This document shows positions 22,232 through 41,656 of a stretch of DNA of 64,000 bases, one piece after another (position 1 is the first letter of the stretch; each line of letters starts with the position of its first letter). The notes beneath the pieces are model-generated. The model was not told the DNA's origin. It did not search any database and saw only the letters and a list, made by a program, of their open reading frames with translations. The position numbers and the translations under genes were made by a program. This DNA is from Bacteroidota bacterium. GTDB lineage: Bacteria > Bacteroidota > Bacteroidia > JAHEXY01. The stretch spans positions 1 to 64,000 of the forward strand of contig JAHEXY010000003.1 of assembly GCA_023251875.1 (NCBI GenBank), in the 5' to 3' direction.

Positions 22232-22640
22232 ATTTTTAAAACTTACTTAAAATTATGAAGAATTAAAGTATAAATGAACTTCGAAATAACTTTGTGAAGT
22301 GATTCGCCTGCTAATTAACTTAATAAGATTATGGAACTAGCCTAATTAAAATCATTAAAAAATTCTGAAAGTGTCAGCTTATGAATATTAAGTATTGTTA
22401 ACCAATCGGATTTCTACATTATCGGTAGAAGCACAGGCCATAAAAATAATTTTTGATACCCTAAACAATTCGCTTTTATCGATCGGTTTCCTTTTTATAA
22501 ATGGGGTGGGGGTGTTTTTAAGGGTATTACTTCCTATATATACAAATTGTTTTCTCTGTCTAATTGATAATGTGCTTATCGGTTTCATTTATTATTACAC
22601 TTTTATGTGAATTAGATGAATCGTTTGTTATTTTTAACAC
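22232..22640. other. 409-bp divergent intergenic region between umuD and the AlbA-ATPase gene
   Basis: It contains the umuD promoter region, an inverted repeat ATACCCT (22456-22462) / AGGGTAT (22521-22527) around an unusual G-rich run, and a 21-bp segment (22400-22420) that matches 19590-19610 at 19 positions. A 66-codon minus-strand frame at 22388-22588 is open but has no RBS or known motif, and I do not call it a gene. Confidence 0.4.
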
Positions 22641-23951
22641 GTGAAAAAAGAAGATCAGCATACCGAGTATAAACAATCATGGAGAGATGAATACTTGAAA
22701 TGGATTTGCGCCTTTGCTAATACCAATGGCGGAAGGCTTTACATTGGCATAAATGATAGTGGGAGCGCAATAGGACTTGAGGATTTCAAAAAACTGCTTG
22801 AAGATATTCCCAGTAAAATTGTTAATGTACTTGGCATAACGGCTGATGTGAACCTGAAAAAAGAAAAGGGAAAAGAATACATTGAAATAAAAGTTAAGCA
22901 TTATGATGTTCCGGTTTCATGCAGGGGAAAATTTTATGTTAGGTCGGGAAGTACCACACAGGAATTAAATGGGGCTTCATTACAAAATTTTCTGTTGAAA
23001 AAGGGTGGTTTGGCTTGGGAGTCGTTGGTAGAAGAAAGAGCCACCATAAAAGATATTAATCCTGAAACCATAGCCCATTTTAAAGAACTTGCCAAAGAAA
23101 GATTTCCTTTGGCCGAAAAAGAAAAATCTACTTTGTATTTACTTGAAAAACTTCGATTGCTTCATAAAGGCAAACTCACACGAGCCGCTATTTTACTTTT
23201 TGGAAAAGACCCACAGCAGTTTTATATCAGTTCAATTATAAGAGTAGGAAAATTTTTGGATGAAGCCACCTTGCATAGTATGGATGAAATAAAAGGTAAT
23301 TTATTTGAGCAAGTAGAAGAAACAATGGAAGTGCTAAAGAAAAAATACCTTCATGCCGAAGTAAAAATAAAAGGCTTGCATAGAAAAGAATATCTTGAAT
23401 ATCCGGAAGAGGCCCTGCGCGAGGCTATTATTAATGCAGTAGCGCATCGTGATTATTCGGCAGTGCATACACAACTAAAAATATATCCTGACCAACTTAC
23501 ACTTTGGAATAATGGAGAACTTACCGAAAAGCTTACCATTGAAGGGTTGAAGAAAAAACATTCATCCTATCCAAGAAATGTACTTATTGCTGATGTGTTT
23601 TTTAAAGCCGGTTATATTGATGCATGGGGACATGGCACTATAAAAATGATTGAAGAATGTAAAAAAGCAAAATTACCTGAACCGGTTTATGAAGATGCAT
23701 TCGGAGGAATGCAGGTTACTTTTCTAAAAGATATTTATACGGAGGAATATCTTGCAAAAAAAGGACTGAATGAGAAGCAAATAAAAGCAATCCTTTACGT
23801 AAAAAAAAACGGTAGCATCACAAACTCAGAATATCGTAAAATTTTTGAAACACCAGACAGAACAACTTCAAGGGATTTAATGACCTTGGTTAGTATTGGC
23901 GTTCTGAGAAAAGAAGGCGATAAAAAAAGCAGTAAATATTTGCTTAGATAA
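22641..23951 (+). CDS. Schlafen/AlbA_2 domain protein with RecG-like C-terminal ATPase (HATPase_c_4), 436 aa
   Basis: The N-terminal AlbA_2/Schlafen domain shows ESTEYK-like HTEYKQSW, FANTNGGRLYIGINDSG and YFRVRSGS-like GKFYVRSGSTTQEL. The central and C-terminal part resembles the RecG-like putative DNA-binding family: YPEEALREAIINAVAHRDYS, LTLWNNGEL and GYIDAWGHGTIKMIEECKKA. A winged-helix end (NGSITNSEYRKIFETPDRTT) closes the protein. These proteins are common in mobile elements and serve as regulators or, in some cases, in phage defence; which applies here is unknown. The start codon is GTG. Confidence 0.85.
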   Translation: MKKEDQHTEYKQSWRDEYLKWICAFANTNGGRLYIGINDSGSAIGLEDFKKLLEDIPSKIVNVLGITADVNLKKEKGKEYIEIKVKHYDVPVSCRGKFYVRSGSTTQELNGASLQNFLLKKGGLAWESLVEERATIKDINPETIAHFKELAKERFPLAEKEKSTLYLLEKLRLLHKGKLTRAAILLFGKDPQQFYISSIIRVGKFLDEATLHSMDEIKGNLFEQVEETMEVLKKKYLHAEVKIKGLHRKEYLEYPEEALREAIINAVAHRDYSAVHTQLKIYPDQLTLWNNGELTEKLTIEGLKKKHSSYPRNVLIADVFFKAGYIDAWGHGTIKMIEECKKAKLPEPVYEDAFGGMQVTFLKDIYTEEYLAKKGLNEKQIKAILYVKKNGSITNSEYRKIFETPDRTTSRDLMTLVSIGVLRKEGDKKSSKYLLR

Positions 23952-24275
23952 TTTTGGCAGATAAATGGCTTTTACTTGGCGGATATGGCCGATAAATGGC
24001 GGATAAAAAATCTTCAATATTTTTGATTAATAGGAAAAACTGATAAAGGAACTAAATATTTGCTAAGACGCTATAAAGATGCCACGAAGACGTCATAATG
24101 CCGCCAAATTATTTTTTGATGAAAAGTAACATCTGGTTTGGCTTAAATAAATGTTGTATAAAAAAACGGGGGTGAATTTTATACAACTCGATGGCACAAT
24201 ATGCGTATGTTTATCTATGATAAAAACTCAAATTATTACTATGCTTGATATATGCTACCATTTTTATAATTTCAA
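23952..24275. other. 324-bp intergenic region with short direct repeats
   Basis: Just after the AlbA-ATPase stop, GATAAATGGC occurs at 23960-23969 and 23991-24000, and GGCGGATA at 23978-23985 and 23998-24005. These make an imperfect tandem pattern of GGC, GATA and ATGGC units over about 50 bp. Nothing else recognisable lies in the remaining AT-rich sequence. Confidence 0.45.
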
Positions 24276-26048
24276 CTATCGATTCCTTTCAGTAAAATTA
24301 TCAACTAATGATTTTTCTTCTTCTTCAAATGAAATATGATAATTTTTATTAACGAATAATACCATAAGATAAGGGGTAATTGTTTTTTCATCAATAATTT
24401 TATCATTATAGTATGAAATATCAAGAAGCATATTCTCATTCGTTAAAATAAATAAACCATTTTTATCGATGTTATTAATTGCAGGCAAGCTTTTTGGTTG
24501 CATTTTTAATTTATTAATTGCAATGTTTTTAAGTTCTTCCGCAAGTTTTTTAGAATTACCAACTCCAATGCGAAAAGGTGCGAAAATAAAACTAGCACCA
24601 GTTACCTTAGCGTTATCATTATACTTTTTATCATAGTAGTCAATCACTCTATCATTATAGTAACTTTCTGACCAAACATTATATTTCTTTACGATTTTAT
24701 ATATAGGAATATCAGTATAGGTTTTATCTGAAAAATAATAATTTGCTTGGGCTACCATTAACTCATTATTCATATTTAAATCTGGTTTTTTAATTTTCAA
24801 GTCGTATGCATTTAAATCGTCCATTGAAGTTTTAGGATACATACCCAAAATATCTTGCATTGTTGTTCTATTGGAAATATTTCGGATTTGTTCTTCATTG
24901 GAATTTTCAAAGAAATTATTTGCCAATGTTTCATAATCTACATAATCGGAATATTGTATGCCTAACCAACAGCCATTGCATATCCAAACATCATCAAATT
25001 GTGGGTTTACAATATAAGTTCCATTTTCATTTAAAATTCCATATTTGTCGGATGATTGCACGACTGCAAAATCGCTAACATAACCAAGTTTAACATTGTC
25101 AAATTGTGGATTGACTATATATTTACCATCATTGTCGATGAAGCCATATTTTTTATCTGACCCCTGAACAGCAGCATTTCCTGAACTTGTAAAATCTTGT
25201 ACCGATAGAAATTGTGGATTTATAATATATTTCCCTGATTTATCAATATAACCCCAAGTTTCACCCTGTTTGATTGCAGCCTTACCATTTTTAAATTTAT
25301 ATTCTCCTTTATCTTCAAAATTCAAATCCAAATTAAACCATCCGTCAAATTGAGGGTTAATTTCGTAATTACCTTCTTTGTTAATAAATCCCCACTTGTT
25401 TCCGTCATTACTGACGAATGATAAGCCTTCGGAAAAATAACTCGGAGCACATGAGTTAATAGTATCTTCAATAAATTGAAAATCAATTTTAATTTCACCT
25501 TCTTTGTTAATAAATCCCCATTTTTTTTGTTTTGTTTTTGTATCGATTTTTGATACAGCAGCTAACCCTTCACTAAACATATTTGCGTTTTCATATAAGG
25601 GATTAATTTTTATTGTCCCATCTTTATCTATATAACCCCATTTGCCTTTTATTTTAAATGGAGCCATTCCTTCAGAAAATCCACCACAAGCATCAGCGTC
25701 AACTGTAAATATAATTTTACCCTCTTTATTAATAAACTGTGGCTTGCTATTTTCTGAAATTACACATGCTAATTCCTCTGAGAAACTATTTGCACTTTTG
25801 TAAGTAGGGTTTATTACATATTTGCCATCTATTCCAATGAATCCGAATTTGTTTTCATTCGATTTCACTAATGCCAATCCATCCCTAAATAAATGCGCTT
25901 CTTCAAATTGAGTATTAATAATAAATTTGCCTTGTTTATCAATATAACCCCATTTGTCTCCTGATTTAATTGGAATAAGTTTTATATCATTATTTTTTTT
26001 ACATGATATAAAAGCAATAAGAATAAAAATGATGATGATGTTTTTCAT
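24276..26048 (-). CDS. WG-repeat lipoprotein, 590 aa
   Basis: The N-terminal lipobox is FISC (Cys ~16). Residues ~20-370 carry about nine WG repeats with the core KWGYIDKQGKFIINTQFEEA (variants GFINKEGEI, GFIDNDGKY, GILNENGTY). The last ~210 residues are a different domain with many Asn/Tyr/Lys that I do not recognise. WG proteins in Bacteroidota are cell-envelope proteins of unknown role. It is the last minus-strand gene of the exported-protein block of the mobile element, 168 bp after the T9SS protein gene. Confidence 0.85.
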   Translation of the reverse strand: MKNIIIIFILIAFISCKKNNDIKLIPIKSGDKWGYIDKQGKFIINTQFEEAHLFRDGLALVKSNENKFGFIGIDGKYVINPTYKSANSFSEELACVISENSKPQFINKEGKIIFTVDADACGGFSEGMAPFKIKGKWGYIDKDGTIKINPLYENANMFSEGLAAVSKIDTKTKQKKWGFINKEGEIKIDFQFIEDTINSCAPSYFSEGLSFVSNDGNKWGFINKEGNYEINPQFDGWFNLDLNFEDKGEYKFKNGKAAIKQGETWGYIDKSGKYIINPQFLSVQDFTSSGNAAVQGSDKKYGFIDNDGKYIVNPQFDNVKLGYVSDFAVVQSSDKYGILNENGTYIVNPQFDDVWICNGCWLGIQYSDYVDYETLANNFFENSNEEQIRNISNRTTMQDILGMYPKTSMDDLNAYDLKIKKPDLNMNNELMVAQANYYFSDKTYTDIPIYKIVKKYNVWSESYYNDRVIDYYDKKYNDNAKVTGASFIFAPFRIGVGNSKKLAEELKNIAINKLKMQPKSLPAINNIDKNGLFILTNENMLLDISYYNDKIIDEKTITPYLMVLFVNKNYHISFEEEEKSLVDNFTERNR

Positions 26049-26216
26049 TTTGTTAACAGTTTTTATTTGCCATTTTGGCTTGTCGTTAATATCCCGTTTT
26101 TGTATAAGTGGTCGCTGGACTCCACTATTATTTTATAAATGTTTTATAACGAATCATTAAAAAATATTATGGAAAATAATTGTTCTGCGTTTTAATATTA
26201 TAGTTTGTAATGCTGT

Positions 26217-26702
26217 TTATTTTTTTACGACCGTATATGTATTTTCCTTATTCTCCCTTATAGATTTTATCCGAAGAAAATAACTACCGCTAGAGTATAA
26301 ACTCATAGGAAGCATATAAGTAGAATTTTGTTTCCATTCTTTTGTTAATAATTGCTTTCCATTCATATCTAATAATTCAATTTGTAGAGGAAGATTTTTA
26401 ATGGGACACTCAATAGATAGTTGCTCTGCTGTTGGGTTGGGATAAATGCAAATATTTTTAATAATTGCTAAATCGTCAATGCTTGAAATTTCTATAATCG
26501 GCTGATGAAATCCTTGGGTAAGCGTTTGAGAATTTCCTGTATATGTTTCGGTTAATATTTCTCCTAATGTCCATGAAATTATGTTGATACTATCAGAATA
26601 TTGATCACCACTACTTGCCACAACTTCCGGAACAATTGTTTGAGAATAAGAAATATAATTTGCCAATAAAATAATCAGTAATAAAATAAAAATGTTCTTC
26701 AT
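26217..26702 (-). CDS. Short secreted protein with T9SS type A sorting domain, 161 aa
   Basis: After the signal peptide (cleavage near SYSQ, residue ~20) comes a short segment ISWTLGEILTETYTGNSQTL and TQGFHQP, a conserved lead seen before T9SS domains in many Bacteroidota proteins. The sorting domain follows: ICIYPNPTAEQLSIE, IELLDMNGKQLL, SGSYFLRIKS. No catalytic domain is present. It may be a small surface protein or structural subunit. Confidence 0.8.
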   Translation of the reverse strand: MKNIFILLLIILLANYISYSQTIVPEVVASSGDQYSDSINIISWTLGEILTETYTGNSQTLTQGFHQPIIEISSIDDLAIIKNICIYPNPTAEQLSIECPIKNLPLQIELLDMNGKQLLTKEWKQNSTYMLPMSLYSSGSYFLRIKSIRENKENTYTVVKK

Positions 26703-26781
26703 GTAATCGTAATTAATTTAATTCGCACCAATACAAAATTTTAACTGCTCCATTTCTTATTTTTTTTAATATTCAGTTCTA

Positions 26782-29196
26782 TTATTTTGTATAATTAGAC
26801 GTTGGTATTTTTTTTATATTTATTGCATAGTTTAATCCTAAACGGCCATCATCTATACCTGAGGTTATTATCCCAACTACCTCTTCTTGCATATTTAGTA
26901 ATGGACCTCCACTATTTCCATGAGTAACTTTAGCATCAGTTAAAATGAAAAAATCATCAACGCCATTAGCATTTTGGAATTGAGTTACAAATCCTTTTGA
27001 TGGAATCTTAAATAACCCTTTTGGATTTCCAATAGCAAGAACTGGAGACAACATTTCAGGCTGAATTGTAGCAAGTTTTAAGTAATAAAAATTTTGATAG
27101 TCATTTTTCTTTTTCACTTTAAAAATTACATAATCCTTTTTTTTATCTTCCTCTAATACTTCTTCAACTTCAAAAAATTTAGACAAGTCTGATTTATCTT
27201 TTTCATAATTTTCACCTGTATAAATAATTGCATTTTTATACGAATTACGATTAAGTACGTGATAATTACTAATTGCAATTCCTCCGGCTGAAATAAAAAA
27301 TCCTGTCCCTTGCGAAGCCTCATCCGAATTAGTTTCAGATGATACTAAAATCATAAATACTGCATTTTTGCAATCACTAAATATAGCAGCGTCACTCCCA
27401 TAAGATTTAGATTCATTTGCTTTTTTGTCTATTGCGGCTATTTGATTTTTAGGATACGATTCATCGGGTTTTAATTCTGAAGCTTGTTCATATAATTCTT
27501 TGGCGTTATCATATTCTCTTTTTTTCATTGCCAAGTCAGCATTTTTTAAATAGGCAACATATTTTATGTCTATATTTCTTTGCTCTAATTCCTCTTTTTT
27601 TCTTTCTATTTTTTCAATTTGACTAGTCGGATAATCAGCTCCATTTTTAATAGTCAATGATTTGTTATATAAATCAAGAGCTTTATCAATTTGCATATGA
27701 TTAAATGCATAATCCGCTTGTTTAATCAATGAGCTGTATTCATCATCAATTTTCTTTTGTCTCATTTTTTCTTTTATCTCCTCTATTTTTTCAGCTTGAG
27801 TCATAGAATAATCGTCCTTATAGTTTTTAAGAGCCCACGCATTCATATATAAATCATGCGCCTTTTCATATTGAACAATCTTAAATGCTGCATCTGCTTG
27901 TTTAATCAATGAGCTGTATTCATTGTTAATTTTCTGTTGTTGTATTTCTGCTATTCTTTGAGTTGGGCAAATTTCCGGGTTGATTTCACATGCTTTTTTT
28001 AAAAACACAATACTCGTATCATAATTATTGTTTTTTAATTCTGTTTCTGCACATGCAATAAATCCGTTATATATGCTATCGGTTTTTAGTTGGTTAATGA
28101 TTCTTGAAATTTCTGCAATACTATTCTTTAAACTTTGGTTTTCAGGTTGCATCTTTATAGCCTTACTGTAAAACATTAAAGATGCTGTATAAAATTTTTC
28201 TGAATATAGTGAGTCCGCTTTTTGTAGTAGGCTTTGATAGAGTTCTTCTCTTGCTTTGATTGCCGACAAAGTATCATTTGTTTCTGCTATTTTATTTTTT
28301 GTGAACTCCTCATTTGGATTGAGATTTAGAGCGTTTTTATATTCGACTAAAGCTTCATTGTATTTTTGATCTTCAAAAAATTTGTTAGCTTTTTGAGTAG
28401 TTTTTTCAAATGGGTTTTGCGTATTAAGGTATATTGCATCAGAATATGCAATTACCAGTTGAAGGCTTTGTTTATAATAGTATTTACTATTTTTGGCACT
28501 TAGTTCTTTTTTAACTTTTCTTGCTTTTAGCAATATGCCACTTAAATCGAAAACCCAAATTGCGGTTGCAACACTTGCAGAAATTAATGATAATTGATAT
28601 TGCTGTTTTGATTGAAGAAATAAATTATTGCTTTGAGTAATGTCATAAGAATTTCTATAGAGATTATAATTGCTTTCGGCCTGTTGGTTGAGATAAATTG
28701 AAGAAGCAATTAATCCGTATGATACTACACCATAAATAAAATAATGCCAACCATTGCGGAGTTGATAATCCCCTATTCCGGGAAATAATAAAGATCGTTC
28801 AATATGTTTTAAAGTTGATATTTGAGGCAAGGTATATGCGCTTATTTTTAATTGAACGGTATCATCTAAAACATATCCGTCAGTTCGCTGGCTCCATTTA
28901 AAGTTTTTAATTCCATCTCCGCTTATATTTGATGTTTCACCGGATAAGGTTTTGATATTTAATTTGGTTTCCTTTTCATACGAAGGAAATGGAGGGAATG
29001 TATTTATTTTTTGTGCTTCAATTAAAAGCGTAAACTTATCAAAGGGTTTGGTGTTTGAAAGTTTATAGGAAAAATTAACATCATCTTTTATTGAATCATA
29101 ACGGAACAGAATATTTGAGATAACAGCATTCGTATGCTTTTGCCCATAAGCTATATTTACAATGAATAGTAATATGATGTAAAATATTTTTCTCAT
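26782..29196 (-). CDS. Membrane-anchored TPR protein with C-terminal trypsin-like serine protease, 804 aa
   Basis: Order of parts: signal peptide (to ~18), beta-rich domain (~20-125), two hydrophobic segments near 150-170 and 200-225, TPR repeats with Lys/Glu-rich spacers (~265-595), and a trypsin-like protease domain (~605-804). The catalytic triad is visible as His ~646 (SNYHVLN), Asp ~688 (KKDYVIFKV) and Ser ~762 (HGNSGGPLL), as in Deg/HtrA enzymes, but no PDZ domain follows. It is the last gene of a tight operon: 1 bp separates it from the gene upstream. The protease likely acts in the periplasm, with the TPR part binding partners. Confidence 0.85.
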   Translation of the reverse strand: MRKIFYIILLFIVNIAYGQKHTNAVISNILFRYDSIKDDVNFSYKLSNTKPFDKFTLLIEAQKINTFPPFPSYEKETKLNIKTLSGETSNISGDGIKNFKWSQRTDGYVLDDTVQLKISAYTLPQISTLKHIERSLLFPGIGDYQLRNGWHYFIYGVVSYGLIASSIYLNQQAESNYNLYRNSYDITQSNNLFLQSKQQYQLSLISASVATAIWVFDLSGILLKARKVKKELSAKNSKYYYKQSLQLVIAYSDAIYLNTQNPFEKTTQKANKFFEDQKYNEALVEYKNALNLNPNEEFTKNKIAETNDTLSAIKAREELYQSLLQKADSLYSEKFYTASLMFYSKAIKMQPENQSLKNSIAEISRIINQLKTDSIYNGFIACAETELKNNNYDTSIVFLKKACEINPEICPTQRIAEIQQQKINNEYSSLIKQADAAFKIVQYEKAHDLYMNAWALKNYKDDYSMTQAEKIEEIKEKMRQKKIDDEYSSLIKQADYAFNHMQIDKALDLYNKSLTIKNGADYPTSQIEKIERKKEELEQRNIDIKYVAYLKNADLAMKKREYDNAKELYEQASELKPDESYPKNQIAAIDKKANESKSYGSDAAIFSDCKNAVFMILVSSETNSDEASQGTGFFISAGGIAISNYHVLNRNSYKNAIIYTGENYEKDKSDLSKFFEVEEVLEEDKKKDYVIFKVKKKNDYQNFYYLKLATIQPEMLSPVLAIGNPKGLFKIPSKGFVTQFQNANGVDDFFILTDAKVTHGNSGGPLLNMQEEVVGIITSGIDDGRLGLNYAINIKKIPTSNYTK

Positions 29197-29197
29197 A

Positions 29198-30202
29198 TCA
29201 GTTTTGAATGTGTTTTACTGAACCGTATCGTACCGTATTTTCAAAAATGGCATAGGCCCGGTAATAGTAATCAACTCCTGGAATCATATTTTCTAAAGTA
29301 GTTGTGAATATTTCAGCTTGAGAAGTTGTGCCTAGCGATAGTCTGGTGTCATTAATAGATGGGTTAGATGTTGTATATGACCAACAGTGGCCATAATCTA
29401 TAATAGGATAAATACCAATACTAAGAATTTCTCCTTCTAATATGGCATTTGTAGAATCGACCATAATAAAACTATCCGTTTCTACAATCAAATCAGGTAT
29501 GAAAAAAGTAATTATATCTCCATATTTAAAAATGGATTCACCTAATTTTACGTAGGCGCGAACATTATATCCTGTTGTTAAGCTGAGATCAGAAAGAGTA
29601 CTGCTAAAAGTTATACTACTCGATAAACCACCAAATGAAGTTTTATTATCAAAGCTGTAAGATGAGTCGCTCCATTGATGGCCATAGTCAACAATATTTA
29701 CAGAATAAATGCCTGTAATATCTGAACTAACATTTACTGTTGAATTATCTATTATTTCATAATGGGTGTTGGTAATTTTTATTTCAGCGAATGAACTGTT
29801 AAAACTAATTTCTTTGCCATATATGGTTTCAGTTTTATTGCTTAAATAGGATCGTACATAATAGGTGGTGTAGGGCTCTAGATTTATTAAGGTGCTGTTA
29901 AAGTATCTTGTTTCAGTACTGTTTCCAAAGTCAGTTTTATTGTCATAAATATCTGGGTTAGGTTTTGTTGACCAGCAATGGCCATAACTTGTAATACCAT
30001 CTTCTGAAATATCAACGATTGTACCTTTTGCTGTTATTATAGAGTCGGTAGATTCAATAGCATCGGTAGTAATTTTATTTATTCTTTTAATATTAAGTTT
30101 TTTGCAAGAGGTATTATTCAAACTAAAACATAAGAGTAGTATCCATATAACTATAGCAGATAATCGAAGGTGAAATTTGTAATATGTACAAGGATTTCTC
30201 AT
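29198..30202 (-). CDS. Exported lipoprotein-like protein with three fibronectin III-like repeats, 334 aa
   Basis: The hydrophobic N-terminus ends in SLNNTSCKK, a possible lipobox (TSC). Three repeats of about 95 residues each contain a GHCWS or GHQWS motif followed by a FGN/FGG turn, an F.STL..L stretch and a Y.VRAY strand. These repeats resemble FN3-type modules of Bacteroidota surface proteins. It is the middle gene of the operon, 7 bp after the upstream gene. The role is probably structural. Confidence 0.75.
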   Translation of the reverse strand: MRNPCTYYKFHLRLSAIVIWILLLCFSLNNTSCKKLNIKRINKITTDAIESTDSIITAKGTIVDISEDGITSYGHCWSTKPNPDIYDNKTDFGNSTETRYFNSTLINLEPYTTYYVRSYLSNKTETIYGKEISFNSSFAEIKITNTHYEIIDNSTVNVSSDITGIYSVNIVDYGHQWSDSSYSFDNKTSFGGLSSSITFSSTLSDLSLTTGYNVRAYVKLGESIFKYGDIITFFIPDLIVETDSFIMVDSTNAILEGEILSIGIYPIIDYGHCWSYTTSNPSINDTRLSLGTTSQAEIFTTTLENMIPGVDYYYRAYAIFENTVRYGSVKHIQN

Positions 30203-30209
30203 GCTCTTA

Positions 30210-31862
30210 TTATTTCAAATAACCATTAATGGACATAGGATAAGAGGATAATGAATAAAGGCTTTTAATGGTTTGTCCTTCCTTGACAAAAATTGGTAGG
30301 CCAAAATCTATATAAATTGAGGTTGATGAAGATGCATCATAATTACTGGTACCATACGTGACATAATTATTGTCAATTTTAATTGCGTTGGATGCTGTGT
30401 AGGAATAAATATTGGTAATGTAAAATGTGTATCCCTGTGGCACTACATAGGGAGTGCTATAAAAATTATTTAAAGTGATGGGAGTAACTTTTCCCTTTAT
30501 TAGAAAACCATTTATACTACTATTATTGTCGGCAGATTTTATTGCACTACCAGCCCCGGCTATTAATGGCTGAATCAATGGGCGAGAGTAATAAGCTGCT
30601 TTATCAGATTTAAAAACGGTAATGCCGTCTATTGATAAATTACCAGCATTTGTATTGCCATTATAAAATCTTGTAATGTATAGGTTGTATCCAGTAGGAA
30701 CGGTATAAGGAACAGATAATAAACTATCCATTGTGATAGGTGTAATATTATCAGTACCATCAGGGAATGAAAAATTAAAAGGAGGTGGTATGTAAACTGA
30801 ATTTCCATTTGTTATACTAAGTGTATCATTAGAAAATTTTATATTTTGAGTATCTGTGTTATCCAAATAAACATCAAGGGCCACTTTATTTCCTTTTGAA
30901 ATGCTTAAGGTGTCACTGGCAAGAAATAAATTCTGTATCTCATTTGTTGTGTCTGCATCAACATCAGGAGGCAAAACAATAGAATTTCCATTACTGATAG
31001 ATATTGTATCATTAGAAAGGGATAAGGTTTGTAGTTCATTTGAGCTATCATTGTCATTTAACTTTACAGAGTTTCCTTTAGAAATAAGTAGCGTATCTTT
31101 ATTTATTGATATATATTGAATTTCATTTATACTGTCGTTATCATTTAGCATAACATAATTACTTCCGCTAATTTTTAAAGAATCATTATTAAGTGATAGG
31201 TTTTGAATTTCATTTAAAGGGTCATAATCTAAATCAACCGTACCCCCAATTTGAACCGAATTACCATAACTAATGCTTAGCATAGTGCCGGATAAGCTTA
31301 ATGTTTGGCTATCATCATCTGTAAATGATCCCCCTCCATTTGATAAATATACGGTACTGCCTGATTTGGTAATTGTTTGTAGTTCGTTTGTAGAATCAAT
31401 ATCAAAATCAGTAGCTGAACTCCCACTGGTTTCTGCATATAAAGCATAAGGAACTGATAACAGTTGAGAAGTTCCCATAAAAATATAATTGCTATTACCC
31501 TTAGTGTCCAGCTCTATTTTTATAAAAAAAGTATTGCTGCCCCAATTTATAGTTGCAAAATTTCCGGTAACAATACTACCCTCTCCTATATTCAAATTAA
31601 CCAGTCCAAATTCATTAGTTGCAACCTGATGGGTTTCTGAATAAATAACAGTACCTATAGCACTACCTTCAAGTATGCTAATCCGCAAGGAAACAATAGT
31701 ATTCTCAATTGCACTTCCATTTGCTTCTCTAACTACAGCCTGGTATTTAAATGCCTGAGGTGTTTGGGCATAAGAGCTAATGCCAATAATAAAGGCAAGA
31801 AAAATAAATACGAAGAGATTTTTCTCTTTTCGTAATCTTTGGGTATAAAATTTTCTCATTCG
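30210..31862 (-). CDS. Secreted repeat protein with conserved Bacteroidota N-terminal domain, 550 aa
   Basis: A basic lead and hydrophobic signal (cleavage near SYAQ, residue ~34) precede a ~120-residue domain common in Bacteroidota surface proteins (FKYQAVVREANGSAI, VSLRISILEG, VIYSETHQV, NEFGLVNLNIGEG, LLSVPYALYAETSG). Next come six or more ~25-residue repeats of the form DSxNEIQxLSLxNDTLxISxGN, then a beta-rich tail of two similar halves (ITMDSLLSVPYTVPTGY and ITLNNFYSTPYVVPQGY). The start is put at 31862 (MRKFYTQRLRK), right after the leader hairpin; an in-frame ATG at 31880 is blocked within that hairpin. It is the first gene of the operon. Confidence 0.75.
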   Translation of the reverse strand, partial: RMRKFYTQRLRKEKNLFVFIFLAFIIGISSYAQTPQAFKYQAVVREANGSAIENTIVSLRISILEGSAIGTVIYSETHQVATNEFGLVNLNIGEGSIVTGNFATINWGSNTFFIKIELDTKGNSNYIFMGTSQLLSVPYALYAETSGSSATDFDIDSTNELQTITKSGSTVYLSNGGGSFTDDDSQTLSLSGTMLSISYGNSVQIGGTVDLDYDPLNEIQNLSLNNDSLKISGSNYVMLNDNDSINEIQYISINKDTLLISKGNSVKLNDNDSSNELQTLSLSNDTISISNGNSIVLPPDVDADTTNEIQNLFLASDTLSISKGNKVALDVYLDNTDTQNIKFSNDTLSITNGNSVYIPPPFNFSFPDGTDNITPITMDSLLSVPYTVPTGYNLYITRFYNGNTNAGNLSIDGITVFKSDKAAYYSRPLIQPLIAGAGSAIKSADNNSSINGFLIKGKVTPITLNNFYSTPYVVPQGYTFYITNIYSYTASNAIKIDNNYVTYGTSNYDASSSTSIYIDFGLPIFVKEGQTIKSLYSLSSYPMSINGYLK

Positions 31863-31863
31863 C

Positions 31864-32020
31864 TTTTTGTGTATTGCCACAAAAAACCTGCGTGGGTCAT
31901 TCTACTTATCCGCTACTGAGGTACTAGAATACCTGCAAACGAAATAAGCAAAAGCCCACGCATTGCGTGAGCGTTTCACCTTTCTCTCGTTTGCTATTAA
32001 ATTTCTAGTTTTCAGTAGCG
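31864..32020 (-). promoter_or_regulatory. Highly structured leader of the exported-protein operon
   Basis: Nested perfect stems: CGCTACTGA (31911-31919) with 32012-32020; ACTAGAA (31923-31929) with 32003-32009; GCAAACGA (31935-31942) with 31987-31994; and an apical hairpin 31954-31961 with 31965-31972 (one mismatch). TGCGTGGG at 31889-31896 can pair over 8 bp with 31955-31962, competing with the apical hairpin. TTTTTGTG (31864-31871) pairs with 31878-31885 directly before the start codon. On the minus strand this would be a 5' untranslated leader. Alternatively it is a DNA element. The rest of 31863-32308 shows no gene. Confidence 0.6.
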
Positions 32021-32308
32021 AGGAATCAGCTTAACGCAAATTCTTATATGTGATTAATTATTATTTTTCTATCTACTTAATTTTAAAATGGTTTATATCA
32101 AAAATAGAATTTAATTTTTGTTTGCAAAATATTCTGCGTTCTAATTGTTCTTAATCTGCAAAAGCAAAAAAATAATTGAGCTTCATCCGTTCTGTTTTTT
32201 GTTTTAAAATATGGTAATATAATTGCTGTGATTGCTTCCATTTTAGCTACAAAAAGGCTATCTTAAAGTAAGCAAAAATGCAATTTGAACACTGTAATAA
32301 ATTTAAGA

Positions 32309-32824
32309 ATGACGGCTTTCAAAAACTACATTCGTAAAACTACCCTCAAAGAAGTTAGGCGAGTATTTACCCTACTTCATAAATCTGAGTTGGCAAGGGT
32401 GTTAAAACTTAACGATCGAGAAAAAACGCTTATAAAATTTTTGTATGAGCATGGATATAAAATAAAACATGTGGCAAATTGCATGGGTACTACCACAGAA
32501 AATATAAACCTTTTATATTTTAGAACATGGAAGAAAATTGGTAATAGACTTGCATCTGCAATAAAAGCCTATGATAGATTAGCCGGCAAGAAAAAGTTAA
32601 GTACCGGCACCCTATTCTTAACCGAATTTGATTTTAAAAAATCAACAATAAGAATGTTTGAAAAGCATAATATAACTAGAGTAAGTGAGTTGATTGATTT
32701 AACTGATATGAGATTGAAACAAATTGGATTTAGTAATACTGCCCGGTTAGATATTAAGCAAACATTATGGAATAATGGCAATCTAACATTAAAGCATTTT
32801 GGAAATAGTTATATACCTTATTAA
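32309..32824 (+). CDS. Small regulator-like protein: sigma region 4-like HTH plus alpha-CTD-like HhH domain, 171 aa
   Basis: Residues ~35-85 (LNDREKTLIKFLYEHGYKIK, then HVANCMGTTTENINLLYFRT) follow the pattern of sigma-70 region 4 or a LuxR-type HTH. Residues ~110-165 (STIRMFEKHNITRVSELIDL, then RLKQIGFSNTARLDIKQTLW) resemble the helix-hairpin-helix domain of the RNA polymerase alpha subunit C-terminus. I know of no named family with this pairing. It is encoded divergently from the exported-protein operon, so it may control it. The start at 32309 is the first ATG; a TTG at 32285 would add eight residues. Confidence 0.6.
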   Translation: MTAFKNYIRKTTLKEVRRVFTLLHKSELARVLKLNDREKTLIKFLYEHGYKIKHVANCMGTTTENINLLYFRTWKKIGNRLASAIKAYDRLAGKKKLSTGTLFLTEFDFKKSTIRMFEKHNITRVSELIDLTDMRLKQIGFSNTARLDIKQTLWNNGNLTLKHFGNSYIPY

Positions 32825-33081
32825 TCCCAATTTTAATGTAGTTCATATCAAATTTTTAAATAAAAAATTGATTTTAAATAAATTAAATTTTATAAATAAT
32901 GAAAAGGATATATATATAAGGATTGTCAGTCCGTCATTTATTTTGAAAAAGAATGGAATTTAGTTCCAAAGAAATTTTAATAATAAAATTCCGTTTGATA
33001 ATGAGTCTGTTATGTTATAAATGCTATTTGTTGTTATTACTTGGGCATAGAAATTAATTTTTTTATTCTTTTGATATATTT

Positions 33082-34518
33082 TCAGGTGGATATTTGACCA
33101 TTTGATTCTAATTTTGTTTTTATTTCCTTTAACCGGTTAAAATATGGTAAAAAAGTTCGGTTACCATTATTTGCCTTTACTGTAGCTAAGTGCGAACTGA
33201 CAAAAAAATTAACATCTGTTATAGTAGTACATGCTCCCAATTTTATTGGATGAGTTGGAAGGGCTGTTGTATTAAAGAAATCTTCAAGTTGGGAAATATT
33301 CCATAAATTATTTTCTATGACTTTCTTTACATCAAAATCATCATTTATAAAATTTGTTTTTATAGCTTCACTTTTTTCACCTATTTCACTTTTGGGGACT
33401 GTTATCGGCTCCGGTTTTGGCTGAAGTAGTATTTGCTCAACTATGATTTTTTCATGTATTTGTTCAACTGATTGAGTTCTGAATTTTCGCCAATCCATTT
33501 TTATAAGTATGTCGGCAATATCATTACCTTGTTCTTTTAGTTTATTTGGCGCAAGCTTTTCCAGTAAGTCTGAAATTTCAAACCATGTACCAGGCATACG
33601 GTCTGAAAATTCTTTTGCTTTTTTGCTCCATAATTCAAAGGCGTTACCGTTTCTTGATAGATCTGGAAACAAATAAACATCCCTTCCTTTTAATACTTTG
33701 CATTTCTCGAAATTTAAACTACTAAGATTATAAACGGCCAACCAAAGTAAATTTTCAGTATTGTCAGGGAATCCTAAATACAATGTTCCGTAAATAGCCG
33801 TCTTTGGTGCTTCAACTAGCGCAACAGGATTGAATAAGTATTTATTCAAAAGGTGTTCGCCAAATAAACAGGAAACTTTTGAATCGTTTGTATTGTATTC
33901 TTTCAACCAACCAGGCAGCTCTTCATTTTTATTTTGGTGCTGCTTTTCAATAATTGAGTGTAAAAAATCCGTTCCTATAGTGCGGTTTTCTTGGTCAAAT
34001 TGTTTTACCTGAATAGTACGGACGTTGTCAATCTTATCAATAAAAGGAAATGTAATTGATCCGGCTCTGTATCCATCGCAAACTGTACCTAAACAATATT
34101 GAGAAATTATCCGGTCCACATCTTTAGTTTCAAAAGGAAATGCAACATTGTTTAAAAGATTTTGAATGAATATGTTTTGTTCATAGCCTTCGCATATTAA
34201 TGTTTGTTTGAATACATCCTTTGGAATAAATACAGTTTCGGATTTTGCGGCTGGTTTTGGCATGGGTGCAGGTCTTTGTGGTTTCCAATTACCTGAATAC
34301 TTGCCCCGTTCCTGATCCCGTATCATTTTTGCGTATCCATCTGTATAGGGATTAAAATGGCAGCTACAATTTATTTCACGGTCGCAACGGCCATATAGTT
34401 CCGGTAAGTAGTTACCTGTATTAATATCAATGTATCGAACAAAGGCTTTTTTACCACAGTTAGGGCAATAGTGCTTTTTACTGCCCATCTCTAATATGTA
34501 TCGGTGTTCATTTGTCAT
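33082..34518 (-). CDS. Primase-like protein with N-terminal zinc finger and TOPRIM-like domain, 478 aa
   Basis: The N-terminus has a Cys cluster, CPNCGKKAFVRY, then GRCDREINCSCHFNP, like the CHC2-type zinc finger of mobile-element primases (DUF6371-like proteins of Bacteroidota). The centre carries a TOPRIM-like pattern with Glu in ALVEAPKTAIYGTLYLG and Asp in DVYLFPDLSRNGNAFELW. It lies downstream of the D5-type helicase gene, the usual replication pair of integrative elements and satellites. It likely primes replication of the excised element. The array of 9-bp repeats lies 28 bp upstream of its start. Confidence 0.75.
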   Translation of the reverse strand: MTNEHRYILEMGSKKHYCPNCGKKAFVRYIDINTGNYLPELYGRCDREINCSCHFNPYTDGYAKMIRDQERGKYSGNWKPQRPAPMPKPAAKSETVFIPKDVFKQTLICEGYEQNIFIQNLLNNVAFPFETKDVDRIISQYCLGTVCDGYRAGSITFPFIDKIDNVRTIQVKQFDQENRTIGTDFLHSIIEKQHQNKNEELPGWLKEYNTNDSKVSCLFGEHLLNKYLFNPVALVEAPKTAIYGTLYLGFPDNTENLLWLAVYNLSSLNFEKCKVLKGRDVYLFPDLSRNGNAFELWSKKAKEFSDRMPGTWFEISDLLEKLAPNKLKEQGNDIADILIKMDWRKFRTQSVEQIHEKIIVEQILLQPKPEPITVPKSEIGEKSEAIKTNFINDDFDVKKVIENNLWNISQLEDFFNTTALPTHPIKLGACTTITDVNFFVSSHLATVKANNGNRTFLPYFNRLKEIKTKLESNGQIST

Positions 34519-34545
34519 TGGTGAAATATACTTTTGTATCAGATG

Positions 34546-34619
34546 TTCACACTTTTCACATTTTTCACAAAGCAGAAATTTAATTTTCCTTTTTCTGTGA
34601 ATTGTGTGAATTGTGTGAA
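34546..34619. repeat. Inverted array of 9-bp iteron-like repeats, candidate origin or operator
   Basis: TTCACA occurs at 34546, 34555 and 34564 (9-bp period), and its complement TGTGAA at 34596, 34605 and 34614 (9-bp period again). The two triplets face each other across a 26-bp AT-rich spacer. The array sits in the 124-bp gap between the helicase stop and the primase start, just upstream of the primase. Iterons of this size bind replication initiators, but a transcription factor site is equally possible. Confidence 0.7.
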
Positions 34620-34642
34620 GGAATCAGAAAACATTTTTTCTT

Positions 34643-36259
34643 TTAAAATGATGAGTTATCTTTTTTTAAATAGGCTATCTTTTGTCCAGTACCTGACTCC
34701 CTGCCAAGGGATACTCCTAATGCCTGGAGTTGCTTGGAAAAATTGATTTTCTTAAATGCTATCATGCCATCCGCAATACAATAGTTCCTATATTCCGGAT
34801 ATAAATCTTTGATTAATTGGTAATCGGTTGAGTTGTTTTTGTAGCCACTTTCGTCTAGAAACAGTTTAATACTATTACTTTCAGTTTTATATTGTTCAAT
34901 AGCTTGTTTTGCAGCTTCACAATGAGAAAATCGTTTTTGTTCCAATAATCGGTTAAGCCCTTCTAATACCCAATTAAAAACTCCTGAAAGTTCTTTATCA
35001 ATGATTTTATAGCTTAATTGCTTATCCTGATCCTGCTCCGGTATTGTTACGCAAAAAGGAATGATTAAAAACCTTCTATAATAAGCATTCGAGTGTTCGA
35101 TATCTTTTGGTAATTCATTACAATTGAAAATAAACTTTGAATAATCATTCATTGTAAAAGGCTGACCGTATTTTAAACAGGCTTCCACGGGTTCACCTGA
35201 AACCAATTGCTTGAACATTGCAACTTCTAATTTTGTACTTATATCACTACAATAATTCAATAATTTGTTTGCAATTTTAGCACGGTAAAACCCTTTTTCT
35301 TCTGTAAGATTTTGCAAAGTATAGTTACTTACATTCTCCCTTCCCATAAGTGCAGTTACAATATCAAACAAAACAGACTTACCGTTTGCTCCGGCTCCGT
35401 AAAGTATTAGGGCTTTTTCTTCTTTTAATGTATTACTGCTATGCTTAATAAATACGTAACCTAGATATTCAGCCAAAATCCTTTGACTTTCCTTATCAGG
35501 CAACACTTTATTTAAATATTCTTCAAATAAAGGTGCACTTGCCTGAGGGTTGTAGTCAAATGGCAATTGATAGGTAATGAAATCTGAACAGTTAAATGGT
35601 CTTAATTTTGTTCCCAGTGGGCTTATTTCAAATGTGCCATTTTTTAAATTGATCAGTACTATATTATTTTTGACTTGGGGGGTATTTATATATTCCGTTG
35701 CGAGGAATTGTTTAAACAACTGTTCCCTAAATAGATAATCCTGTGCATTATCCCAACGAACACCCATTTTTTCCGCTGCTTCACCCAAGAATTTTTGGAA
35801 TACCTCTTTATCTATTTCAGCCCAATAGGTTCCATTATACAGGTAAATAAAATCGTTGTTTTTACATAAGCCCCAACGATTCTTTAAAGCTGTTTTGGAA
35901 ACATTCTTTATTGATAATATCCGATAATGCTTCGCATTGACTTTAATTTTATCAAGTCGTTTTCTTATATCCTTTGCTTGTTCATTTTCAGGATTGAGGT
36001 TTTCTAATTGTTTTCTAAATTCTTCAACTTCAGGGAATGCCAACATTTCAAAATCTAACGGTTCAAACTGTTCAATCAATTGGTTTAATATTTCAGTGTG
36101 TAAAATTGGTTCATTTTTCTTTACCAATTGTTTAATGTGATTAATGATTTTTTCGGGATCAAAAATACTGTCATCAAATTGCGGATTAAGCCTTGTTATA
36201 TTCGTATCTTTACTTTGCGAGTTTGAAGAATTACTAGGAGCTACGATGGAATTATTCAT
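34643..36259 (-). CDS. D5/P4-family replicative helicase (phage/plasmid primase-helicase), 538 aa
   Basis: The superfamily 3 helicase core shows Walker A YGAGANGKS, a following KQLVSGEPVEA segment (sensor region), NCNELPKDIEHSNAYYRRFL and IPFCV, all typical of the D5 N/poxvirus D5-like family. The N-terminal ~210 residues hold the D5_N-like domain (GLCKNNDFIYLYNGTYW). Start at 36259 because AAAGGAG lies 7 bp before that ATG on the minus strand and the ATG at 36280 would lack an RBS. It overlaps the HTH gene stop by 8 bp, so the two are probably translationally coupled. It unwinds the excised element at its origin. Confidence 0.88.
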   Translation of the reverse strand: MNNSIVAPSNSSNSQSKDTNITRLNPQFDDSIFDPEKIINHIKQLVKKNEPILHTEILNQLIEQFEPLDFEMLAFPEVEEFRKQLENLNPENEQAKDIRKRLDKIKVNAKHYRILSIKNVSKTALKNRWGLCKNNDFIYLYNGTYWAEIDKEVFQKFLGEAAEKMGVRWDNAQDYLFREQLFKQFLATEYINTPQVKNNIVLINLKNGTFEISPLGTKLRPFNCSDFITYQLPFDYNPQASAPLFEEYLNKVLPDKESQRILAEYLGYVFIKHSSNTLKEEKALILYGAGANGKSVLFDIVTALMGRENVSNYTLQNLTEEKGFYRAKIANKLLNYCSDISTKLEVAMFKQLVSGEPVEACLKYGQPFTMNDYSKFIFNCNELPKDIEHSNAYYRRFLIIPFCVTIPEQDQDKQLSYKIIDKELSGVFNWVLEGLNRLLEQKRFSHCEAAKQAIEQYKTESNSIKLFLDESGYKNNSTDYQLIKDLYPEYRNYCIADGMIAFKKINFSKQLQALGVSLGRESGTGQKIAYLKKDNSSF

Positions 36260-36563
36260 TGTTAGCTCCTTTCTTTTCATTAAGCGGTTTTATTGCAGCT
36301 AAAACTTCAGTCAGTTTGTAATAAACACGATTCCCAATGCCATAAGCTTTTAGTTTCCCCTTGCGTGTCCAATTATGAACTGTTGAAATATCACATTTAA
36401 GCATTTGTTTCACCTGATCACGCGTTAAATACTCTTCAGGCTCCTTTGGTTGAAAGTTTTGTTTCAACTCTTTTAATTGTTCTTGTAGCTGCTCTTGACC
36501 GGATAAATATTCTTCATACGATACGTTATGAAGAATAGTAGAATTTGGAATAGGATTTTTCAT
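36252..36563 (-). CDS. Helix-turn-helix DNA-binding protein, excisionase/MerR-like, 103 aa
   Basis: A single winged HTH lies in the second half: EYLTRDQVKQMLKCDISTVH, then NWTRKGKLKAYGIGNRVYYK. This is the HTH_17 excisionase pattern. The N-terminal half is a Gln/Glu/Leu-rich helix (coiled coil). In such elements this protein directs excision and controls the int/rep genes. Start chosen at 36563 (MKNPIPNSTIL); an in-frame ATG at 36593 would add ten residues (MRLLIKKIST) of less usual composition. Confidence 0.8.
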   Translation of the reverse strand: MKNPIPNSTILHNVSYEEYLSGQEQLQEQLKELKQNFQPKEPEEYLTRDQVKQMLKCDISTVHNWTRKGKLKAYGIGNRVYYKLTEVLAAIKPLNEKKGANNE

Positions 36564-36632
36564 TGTACTTATTTTTTTAATTAATAAGCGCAAAGAAAAC
36601 TTAGGTAATTTTTAGGTAAAACCTAAATTGCA

Positions 36633-37391
36633 TTAAATACGTTTAATTGGGTCGAATCCAATCTTCTTAAGTTCGGCAAGTACCTTATTTACTGAATCCA
36701 TTTTTTTTGCATTATATGGATTTTTAGAGCTTTCAGGATTATTAATTATGACATTGAGCGTAGAACTAATTGTTGTGTGGTTTTCTCCTGTAATTGCTGA
36801 AAGAAGTGTCGCAAGTCTATTAACGTTATTTTTAAATGGATGTTTAACTTTTAAAAAATTTATAATTCCCACTTCATTGAGATATATAATTTTTTCAGTT
36901 GGTGTAGTATTGCTTAAGTCCTCCTTATAATCAGCAGCATTTTTCAATAAATAAAATGATCTAATATTTTTTATCCCATTTAAATCTTCTTCTATGCATT
37001 CTATGTCATGTATTATGCAACCCTCTTTAATTACTTCTTGTACTCTTGTCCAAAATTGATAAGTAAAAATTATATAGTCTTTACGAAGCCCATTATTAAT
37101 ACCGTTTTCAGGGTTTTTAATATGATCCATTACAAAACATCTTTCCTCATTAAAATTTTCATCTCTTAGATATAAAGGGCGATTACTTAATAAGGATTTT
37201 AGATATGTAATTTGCTTTTCTTTCGACAATAAAACCAAATTACATTTTATTTCATCTTTAAATGGCGTAAGTAATTCATCGATTCCTAAACCATCCATAT
37301 AAGACAGTAATCCTTCCACGTCTCTTTCAAAACAATCCCAAAATTCTATATACCAGAAACAATCTATTATTTTATTGTATGCTTTATTCAT
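36633..37391 (-). CDS. Hypothetical mobile-element protein, 252 aa
   Basis: I cannot name the family. It is soluble and acidic-helical. Its C-terminal ~80 residues (IIYLNEVGIINFLKVKHPF, then NRLATLLSAITGENHTTISS) resemble a tail seen in many Bacteroidota mobile-element proteins encoded next to integrases. It lies between the integrase and the HTH/replication genes on the same strand, in the usual place of a regulatory or accessory gene. Position suggests a role in excision or replication control. Confidence 0.65.
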   Translation of the reverse strand: MNKAYNKIIDCFWYIEFWDCFERDVEGLLSYMDGLGIDELLTPFKDEIKCNLVLLSKEKQITYLKSLLSNRPLYLRDENFNEERCFVMDHIKNPENGINNGLRKDYIIFTYQFWTRVQEVIKEGCIIHDIECIEEDLNGIKNIRSFYLLKNAADYKEDLSNTTPTEKIIYLNEVGIINFLKVKHPFKNNVNRLATLLSAITGENHTTISSTLNVIINNPESSKNPYNAKKMDSVNKVLAELKKIGFDPIKRI

Positions 37392-37428
37392 TTTCTTTTG
37401 TTAAATGGGTTATGTAAGGATATATTAA

Positions 37429-38637
37429 CTAAAAATACTCAGCTAACTGTATTGCCTTTTGAGTATCTGTTTTACCAATATATTCAAGAAACATACCCTC
37501 CGTACTATGACCTGTTGCGCCTATTAATAAAGAGGTAGGAATACGACCATAATTATTGGAGGCAAATGACCTTCTTCCAATATGACTTGTAACCAATTGC
37601 CATTTTTCAAAAATTCCTGATTCTTTCTTATGTGTTATCGGGTTTTGCTTGCCACCGCTTATTTGTTGAGTTATGCCGGAAAGCTTACAAACAATTTTAA
37701 TAAACTCATTATATCTTTGATCACTAATTTTTCTTGGAAACTCTCCTCCTCTTTTTTGAAGTATTGCCATCACCATTTTACTTAGTGGAACCGTCATTAT
37801 TTTGTCGGTTTTAACTTGAGTAAACTCTATCAATGGTTTTCCGTTCTCATATCTTATTTGCTCTTTTGTAAAACGCATAAAATCTGAAACACGCTGGCCC
37901 GTTTCACAGCTTATAATGAGCCAATCTCTTGCATTTATTAAATATTCCTTACCATCAAGTGTTGCATTTTTTATTAATGCAAGTTCATCTATTGTCAAAT
38001 AGATTTTATCCACTTTTTGAATGTCAGTTTTTATACTTTGTAATAAATGACTTGTTTCTATCTTATTGGTTTGAGCATGATAGCAAATTGTCTTAATAAA
38101 TTTTATTGTACGTGCTATTGTATTTTGAGCATAATTTTCCTGCATACAATAGGATTCAAACTTTAGTTTAAAGTTATTATCAACATCCTTTATTAAATAT
38201 TCTGTTTTAGTAGCTAGCTGAAAACGCTCAAGAAGATGCTTTATCACATTTAACTTAACAAATGAGGCCTTTTTCATTTCATTCTTTTTATGCTTTGCAT
38301 AAAAATCAAAGTATTCAATAAGCTTAGTGGTAATTTCATCAGGCTGCTGAGGGGGAGTAATAAACTCTTTCAACCATTGAGAATTAATAGAGGTAGTTCT
38401 AACACTTTTGTTATAAGCATTTAATAATTCTGTTTTAAAATTTTCAAGGTCATTGTGAAGCCTCTTAAAACCGGCATCTTTTAGATTTTTTGGTTGGCCT
38501 TTGGTAACACTCCAATCATTAGGATTAACTAAAAATTGGGTTCTTGCTTTTAGATCAAGCGTTCTTCCTTCTTTTAATCGTACAAATATTCCGGTAGGAT
38601 TATTTTTACTTTGAATTATAAATCTAATTGTAGCCAT
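37429..38637 (-). CDS. Tyrosine recombinase (integrase) of the tRNA-Ser element, 402 aa
   Basis: The N-terminal arm-binding and SAM-like core-binding domains are followed by the catalytic domain with the Arg in CETGQRVSDFMRF, a Lys in the hairpin region, SHIGRRSFASNNY, and GATGHSTEGMFLEYIG with the nucleophile Tyr near residue 387. It catalyses integration and excision between the 62-bp att sites. Start at 38637 (MATIRFIIQ, the usual integrase start); the upstream ATG at 38664 adds MWAKPYLCI, which reads out of the arm site. A TATCTTTG box lies only 5 bp upstream of the chosen ATG. Confidence 0.93.
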   Translation of the reverse strand: MATIRFIIQSKNNPTGIFVRLKEGRTLDLKARTQFLVNPNDWSVTKGQPKNLKDAGFKRLHNDLENFKTELLNAYNKSVRTTSINSQWLKEFITPPQQPDEITTKLIEYFDFYAKHKKNEMKKASFVKLNVIKHLLERFQLATKTEYLIKDVDNNFKLKFESYCMQENYAQNTIARTIKFIKTICYHAQTNKIETSHLLQSIKTDIQKVDKIYLTIDELALIKNATLDGKEYLINARDWLIISCETGQRVSDFMRFTKEQIRYENGKPLIEFTQVKTDKIMTVPLSKMVMAILQKRGGEFPRKISDQRYNEFIKIVCKLSGITQQISGGKQNPITHKKESGIFEKWQLVTSHIGRRSFASNNYGRIPTSLLIGATGHSTEGMFLEYIGKTDTQKAIQLAEYF

Positions 38638-38641
38638 AATG

Positions 38642-38649
38642 CAAAGATA
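38642..38649 (-). promoter_or_regulatory. Promoter -7 box of the integrase gene, TATCTTTG
   Basis: It matches TAnnTTTG on the minus strand and lies between the arm site and the start codon. Because the ATG follows after 4 bp, transcription would begin at or near the start codon (leaderless or very short leader), and the bound recombinase would sit over the promoter. Confidence 0.5.
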
Positions 38650-38653
38650 CGGT

Positions 38654-38674
38654 TTAGCCCACATTTAGCCCACA
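38654..38674. repeat. Candidate integrase arm site, right
   Basis: It is the same tandem TTAGCCCACA pair as at 19570-19590, in the same orientation, 141 bp from the right att core and just upstream of the integrase promoter, where binding could also repress int. The rest of 38665-38815 is AT-rich and shows no gene. Confidence 0.55.
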
Positions 38675-38815
38675 TTTATTCTATTTATCTCGATTTATTT
38701 AAATCCATGTAAATAATGTATATCTTTACGGAACCGTTGTAGGTATTGAATTTACTAAGGATGAGTATGTTTTATATAGTAAAATAAAAAATGAGAGATT
38801 GAAGATATTGTGGAA

Positions 38816-38877
38816 CCCCTCTCTCCGCCAATTAAAAACGCAAATATCTTTATTTTAGGTATTTGCGTTTTTTGTTT
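38816..38877. repeat. attR, right copy of the 62-bp direct repeat
   Basis: It is identical to 19501-19562 and includes the 3' end of a tRNA-Ser and its terminator without the rest of the tRNA. Sequence downstream belongs to the chromosome. Confidence 0.9.
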
Positions 38878-41437: not shown

Positions 41438-41609
41438 AAACGGATTTTAAATAGGTGTTCTTTCCTGATTTAAAACTAACATCACGTTTTCAATTCGTCT
41501 ACCAGAATGTTTATTAACTAGATTAAAGGAAAAAGCCAATGAGCTTAATATCCCTTACCAATCCTTAATAAAACAATATTAGTCATTAGGTTTAGTAAAA
41601 TAATAGTAT

Positions 41610-41656
41610 AAAAACTAAAATCCCAACCATCATTGATAGTCGGGATTTTAGTTTTT
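41610..41656 (-). terminator. Intrinsic terminator of the giant surface-protein gene
   Basis: A 15-bp perfect stem, AAAAACTAAAATCCC at 41610-41624 with 41642-41656, lies 16 bp after the giant gene's stop. The stem is A/T-rich at its base and could work in either direction. Confidence 0.75.

Follow-up and report, generated by a model that had tools for sequence, protein, structure and literature searches.

The stretch of Bacteroidota DNA analysed here (the window; 64,000 nt) carries an integrated 19.3-kb tRNA-Ser island, within which integrase and primase-like genes lie upstream of a structured minus-strand leader and an exported-protein cargo lies downstream of it (Table 1). The att repeats lie elsewhere and the leader is internal to the island, which rules out, for the window, an element at the boundary of the mobile unit. 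Just outside the island, a 2969-aa minus-strand ORF (41672-50581) contains long internal repeats (blocks about 70-88% identical), and a 51-bp imperfect palindrome (41608-41658; 90%) just downstream of this ORF is probably its terminator.

The leader itself spans 31883-32038, together with a terminal hairpin that reaches as far as 31864. Four nested stems enclosing an apical hairpin, which a first-pass annotation had placed within 31864-32020, are all present on the minus strand, as are the 8-nt competing segment that it described nearer the gene, which is the full complement of the 3' arm of the apical hairpin, and the further hairpin that it saw against the ATG. The conserved family element begins at 32038, however, so that the structure is larger than originally drawn. 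The 184-nt sequence 32040-31857 has a minimum free energy of -71.2 kcal/mol compared to -42.4 ± 4.4 kcal/mol for 200 dinucleotide shuffles (z -6.6), none of which is as good.

Table 1. Positions of the leader, its parts and the surrounding island in the window
Feature	Position	Strand	Evidence or remark
Integrated 19.3-kb tRNA-Ser island carrying the leader	19501-38877
Perfect 62-bp direct repeats bounding the island	19501-19562 and 38816-38877		First at tRNA-Ser(GCT) 3' end; second beyond Tyr integrase
Tyr integrase of the island	37429-38664
Primase-like genes of the island (DUF6371, D5_N/DUF5906)	33082-36280
Predicted sigma-A promoter (Bacteroidota): -33 TTTG (32128-32125), 18-nt spacer, -7 TATTTTTG (32106-32099)	32099-32128	-	Start site expected near 32094
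Predicted 5' leader RNA of the exported-protein gene	31860-32094	-	Promoter, fold z -6.6, covariation
Segment 1: invariant A0 (TGCGTT here; AGCGTT in the family) and linker L5	32021-32038	-	Alternative-state partner is segment 2
P1, outer stem, 9 bp	32020-32012 / 31919-31911	-	Covariation
P2, 7 bp; 3' strand is the loop of hairpin P4	32009-32003 / 31929-31923	-	Covariation
P3, 8 bp	31994-31987 / 31942-31935	-	Covariation
P3b, imperfect, about 7 bp	31981-31975 / 31953-31947	-
Segment 2: P3b 5' strand and B1 (AACGCTCACG)	31965-31981	-	Partner is segment 3 (2:3) or segment 1
Apical hairpin B1:B2, 8 bp, GCTCACGC-AAT-GCGTGGGC then TTTTGCTT	31972-31965 / 31961-31954	-	Terminator- or pause-like; terminator-like match
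Segment 3: B2 (TGCGTGGG, 31962-31955) and P3b 3' strand	31943-31962	-	3:4 sign test
P4 hairpin GGTA/TACC, loop is P2 3' strand	31920-31933	-	Flanks fit their own partners better than exchanged ones (permutation p<1e-4)
Segment 4, competing segment: linker L3 and B3 (CCCACGCA, 31896-31889)	31889-31910	-	B2:B3 pairing
U-run after segment 4	31881-31886	-	With 3:4 hairpin, terminator-like
Terminal hairpin, 8-10 bp, adjoining the start codon	31864-31885	-	Ends 4 nt before ATG 31859
First cargo gene, exported 549-aa protein	30210-31859	-	Weak similarity to Bdello_MAT_N adhesin domain, below cut-off
Next co-directional genes: 334 aa; TPR and trypsin, 804 aa; T9SS tail, 161 aa; WG-repeat, 590 aa	24276-30202	-

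Distribution and structural conservation

The first-pass annotation matched the leader to no known class, and Rfam 15 likewise yields no match, either for the whole window at gathering thresholds or for the leader region at relaxed thresholds. No description of the element was found in the literature searched, which was largely without subscription papers, and plasmid and phage collections gave no match to it; two viral contigs do match the leader. When 84,980 species genomes were searched with a pattern composed of the apical hairpin and the competing segment, 82 loci were obtained, essentially all of them Bacteroidota by record title, the exceptions being a few probably contaminated metagenome bins and the chance match L086. 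Leader copies in bins named as other phyla (L081, a Williamsia bin; L075, a Patescibacteria bin) are probably Bacteroidota contamination. A covariance-model search, suggested in the annotation as a check and run here with a model built from 53 sequences, recovered the element in 105 of 395 genomes of the class and in 40 of 296 genomes of the phylum, 11 of these 40 coming from other classes. Genomes have one to seven copies among the matches listed, and 11 were seen in one genome with looser filters. The source genome has a second copy (G000:C10, 126.8 bits with the covariance model), and further copies occur in other families of the class. The leader apparently belongs to an undescribed, widespread RNA family of Bacteroidota. 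Two local arrangements were also observed: at L189 (genome G015) two leaders about 5 kb apart lie in opposite orientation beside methylase genes (4973-5123, minus strand; 9928-10087, plus strand), and at LamG-type loci (e.g. L032, L039, L066, L082) a small recurring hairpin, ACAGCCnnnnNGGCTGACATA, stands immediately upstream of the element.

Conservation of the fold is evident in an alignment-free swap test, in which native 5' and 3' halves fold at -58.4 kcal/mol compared to -39.4 kcal/mol with the halves of other members, the native partner ranking first in 50 of 53 cases. Over the 40 modelled pairs in 101 model-aligned sequences, 91.0% of cells are paired compared to 66.3% after shuffling, and double-change cells number 986 compared to 293, with such changes in 36 of the 40 pairs; these counts lean towards model R1, to which alignment A7 was fitted, while P4, 1:2 and 3:4 lie outside the model. 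Sliding the alignment by one base lowers pairing to about 40%. The main block of P1 is paired in 97.3% of cells (81% for the outermost pair) and P3 in 78-96% across blocks, both stems having both-side changes in 8/8 pairs, and P2 is paired in 99.5% of cells with all four Watson-Crick types represented. Pairing of the apical hairpin B1:B2 is complete (100% of cells in 101 sequences). Moreover, the flanks of P4, which is outside the covariance model, covary, and P2 and P4 are predicted from sequence either to form a pseudoknot or to alternate with each other.

Competing pairings, promoter and mini-ORFs

Four segments can be distinguished throughout the family: segment 1, the 5' AGCGTT and a linker; segment 2, the 5' arm of the upper stem and apical hairpin; segment 3, the corresponding 3' arm; and segment 4, a linker and CCCACGC. 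The 2:3 pairing is part of the main fold, and 1:2 and 3:4 are mutually exclusive with it. The 3:4 core, GCGTGGG:CCCACGC (B2:B3), is paired in 701 of 704 cells (99.6%), including 22 of the 25 cells that depart from this sequence, and A0:B1 is paired in 91.9% of cells. Compensatory changes, the lack of which in homologous loci had been named in advance as evidence against the structure, are present in every stem and in the competing pairing (for example, GCGTGAG/CTCACGC in L113 and GGGTGGG/TCCACCC in L125), and they rule out chance complementarity of the 8-nt segment. Some relatedness among the sequences remains in the swap and permutation tests, and a nearest-relative sign test was designed to remove it; partners were swapped within 50 disjoint pairs of nearest relatives and scored outside the invariant core. 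Native partners are favoured over swapped ones for 3:4 (37:5, p=2e-7) and for 1:2 (38:8, p=5e-6), the ratio for 2:3 being 25:15, whereas the control segment pairs show nothing (15:20 for 1:3 and 23:23 for 2:4), implying that the alternative state is selected.

When folded alone, the 3' half of the window leader (31962-31881) gives a single long hairpin (-35 kcal/mol, z -5.8) that ends 2 nt before six U residues, and the 3' half of L025, the one other member tested, folds at z -3.1. In addition, a run of at least five T within 16 nt after segment 4 is found in 78% of the family compared to 5% of background windows. The general marks of an attenuator, namely exclusive 2:3 and 3:4 pairings and a U-run after the 3:4 hairpin, are thus both found, and the earlier suggestion that mutually exclusive pairings point to a riboswitch or attenuator is strengthened by a competing pairing that is conserved and extends to a 1:2 / 2:3 / 3:4 layout.

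The housekeeping sigma factor of Bacteroidota has TAnnTTTG as its -7 box (PMC6847099), and 51 of 101 family members have an exact copy 45-75 nt before the element, compared to two expected by shuffling. In the window this promoter consensus is upstream of the element and not downstream, so that a transcription start downstream of 31889, which the first-pass annotation had listed as an observation that would speak against the leader, is not indicated computationally. Among 125 distinct leaders, 64 contain, in the interval that separates promoter and element, an ATG with an in-frame stop 0-2 codons later. These mini-ORFs (ATGTAA, ATGNNNTAA) lie 27-50 nt upstream of the element, as in L025, L061 and L122, and mostly end at least 20 nt upstream of segment 1. 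The spacing of ATG and stop keeps the frame in 80 cases and breaks it in 48 (one third in frame expected; p 1.5e-11), and 79% of ATGs in the promoter-element interval open mini-ORFs compared to 14% behind other AT-rich promoter-like sites. In the window copy the promoter-element interval contains no ATG, and the methylase-type leaders inspected likewise have no mini-ORF.

Proposed mechanism and alternative readings

A cis-acting transcription attenuator or riboswitch-like leader is the best reading of these data. Judged from sequence, we consider it moderately probable that this is a two-fold 5' leader acting in cis, in which 3:4 and the U-run resemble a terminator and the fold favoured by a trigger decides read-through into the accessory gene; we infer that the leader is transcribed and terminated, that it switches, and that there is a trigger, of whatever nature. 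In fold I, P1, P2 (pseudoknotted with P4), P3, P3b and the apical hairpin (2:3) would form. In fold II, 1:2 and 3:4 would pair instead, 3:4 giving a long hairpin like that of an intrinsic terminator, with its G+C-rich base directly before the U-run. A trigger, perhaps a small molecule, a protein, an RNA or ribosome behaviour at the 5' end, would favour one of these folds and thereby determine whether transcription continues into the accessory gene behind the leader; once RNA polymerase has read through, translation may be controlled further by hairpins at the start codon. Nested energy models, in which pseudoknots cannot be represented, give fold I the greater stability, and forcing 3:4 in the full leader costs 8.4 kcal/mol for the window copy in the nested model (family median 12.4). 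Co-transcriptionally, the 3:4 hairpin would have to outcompete stems already formed, and termination may be weakened by the gap of 2-3 nt between the end of the 3:4 stem and the U-run.

In a context set of 41 loci, all but L211 have a first listed downstream gene that runs in the same direction as the leader, mostly at +24 to +60 nt from the element. Domains in the 87 first genes scanned include the T9SS tail (15), LamG (11) and N6_N4 methylase (6), with PLD, sigma factor, TonB plug and others, and 57% of first genes look exported by a simple rule compared to 22% of control ORFs. A leader specific to restriction-modification had been suspected, as the first relatives precede methylases, and was ruled out by the many exported-protein genes in the pattern scan. 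Because the leader can adopt two competing folds and stands ahead of many different accessory genes, it is probably an on/off switch for them, and the great variety of these genes gives no hint of a ligand. The second copy in the source genome and that in genome G058 both lie close to a tRNA gene, and a related integrase is encoded 6-7 kb upstream of each. In genome G296, seven short accessory cassettes set between core genes each begin with a leader, and four of them have a common hairpin at the far end; this hairpin, of about 60 nt (CAAAGAAAAACGCTCGTGAGTCTTAG...GACAAACGAGCGTTTT; L158, L160, L163, L164), is about 87-95% identical between loci.

The element is absent from Rfam even though about a quarter of the genomes sampled in the class have it, often more than once, and it precedes host-interaction and phage-defence genes (exported T9SS, LamG adhesin-like, restriction-modification methylases), partly on mobile islands. 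Were it a switch, it would account for the way in which such imported genes stay off until needed. More speculatively, and we regard this broader idea as tentative, the leaders might form a phylum-wide bistable pseudoknotted class that travels with accessory genes and senses initiating or terminating ribosomes, through the start-stop mini-ORF, or a global signal, thereby providing a ready-made switch for acquired surface and defence genes in any Bacteroidota host.

Features near the start codon bear on a second reading. Most relatives have an extra hairpin between the U-run and the start codon, with a GGGACAT-like loop that pairs with bases in front of B3, overlapping the start of segment 4; this GGGACAT/ATGTCCC-type pairing covaries (permutation p<2e-4), as in AAGACCC/GGGTCTT, CGAGCCT/AGGCTCG and TATCCCC/GGGGATA. 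The window copy and a subclass mostly preceding methylase genes have instead a hairpin of U-run and A-run adjoining the AUG, which in its restriction-modification type reads U6-7GUGGC-loop-ACACAAAAAA. The terminal loop is an exact repeat of the P2 5' strand in six of ten aligned members (L084, L080, L078, L189, L009 and L112) with six different P2 sequences, and by eye also in L005, L006 and L007; exact matches between loop and P2 number seven among 101 overall compared to 0.7% in swaps. A loop that matches the P2 5' strand in this way could base-pair with that of P4. In F. johnsoniae, initiation is reduced by structure close to the start codon (PMC6847099). The start-codon hairpins suggest an added level of translational control, and the loop matches, the GGGACAT/ATGTCCC-type covariation and the F. 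johnsoniae result would suit a translational switch, in which transcription always continues into the next gene, whose start region is exposed or masked according to the pairings formed. Nevertheless, we think this reading unlikely, as the conserved U-run and the upstream 3:4 hairpin would be left unexplained and the P2-like loop is lost in the window copy, where the terminal loop (GCAATA) does not repeat the P2 5' strand.

The promoter signature, terminator-like end and strong fold would also suit an independent trans-acting small RNA terminated by 3:4 and the U-run, the downstream gene being expressed only by leak-through, but such a role is improbable given that this gene nearly always has the same orientation as the leader, typically at a distance of 24-60 nt with another conserved hairpin in the gap, and that members of the same gene families follow the leader in unrelated species. 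Despite the tRNA-integrated islands in the window and at L178 and L179 (same integrase family 6-7 kb upstream) and the seven leader-headed G296 cassettes, four with the common far-end hairpin, a DNA-level element of mobile cassettes (a single-strand-folding recombination or replication site, integron attC-like) rather than a regulatory RNA is very improbable, since strand and distance to the gene are fixed, the promoter signature and U-run are oriented to the gene, the pattern scan shows a single match at 82/82 loci and no array, RYYYAAC / GTTRRRY ends are not found in attC order, and the window leader is internal to its island and not at the island ends.

Comparison with known systems

Integron attC sites resemble the leader in having a conserved fold, variable stem sequence and a position before diverse accessory genes. 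The leader differs in its fixed orientation, promoter signature and U-run, and shows neither ordered attC boxes nor, in the pattern scan of the 82 loci, arrays; identity with attC was rejected on these grounds and because the element starts with AGCGTT and ends with CCCACGC, without a 5' RYYYAAC or a 3' GTTRRRY. Flavo-1 (RF01705) and other Bacteroidota motifs are alike in being phylum-restricted structured RNAs of unknown role, and structured 5' regions have been mapped in F. psychrophilum (PMC9723704). Neither Flavo-1 nor another Rfam motif was found at the leader, the one Flavo-1 match (L078, 7323-7467) being about 4 kb from the L078 leader (3171-3327).

Riboswitches share with the leader a conserved complex fold with a pseudoknot core and an expression platform, predicted for the leader, at a terminator or start codon, but the leader has no Rfam match or known ligand and its downstream genes are common to no pathway. 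The leader-peptide attenuators of the trp and ilv type are alike in their four ordered segments, in 1:2 and 3:4 pairings that exclude 2:3, and in the U-run after 3:4. They differ in that the leader has no peptide of regulatory codons (no regulatory ORF overlaps segment 1); instead, half of the family carries a mini-ORF (AUG-stop or AUG-X-stop) placed well before segment 1, and none is present in the window copy. Moreover, the antiterminator of the leader is a long stalk with a pseudoknot, and the genes are unrelated accessory genes rather than those of biosynthesis. The leader would represent a new structured family that works like an attenuator.
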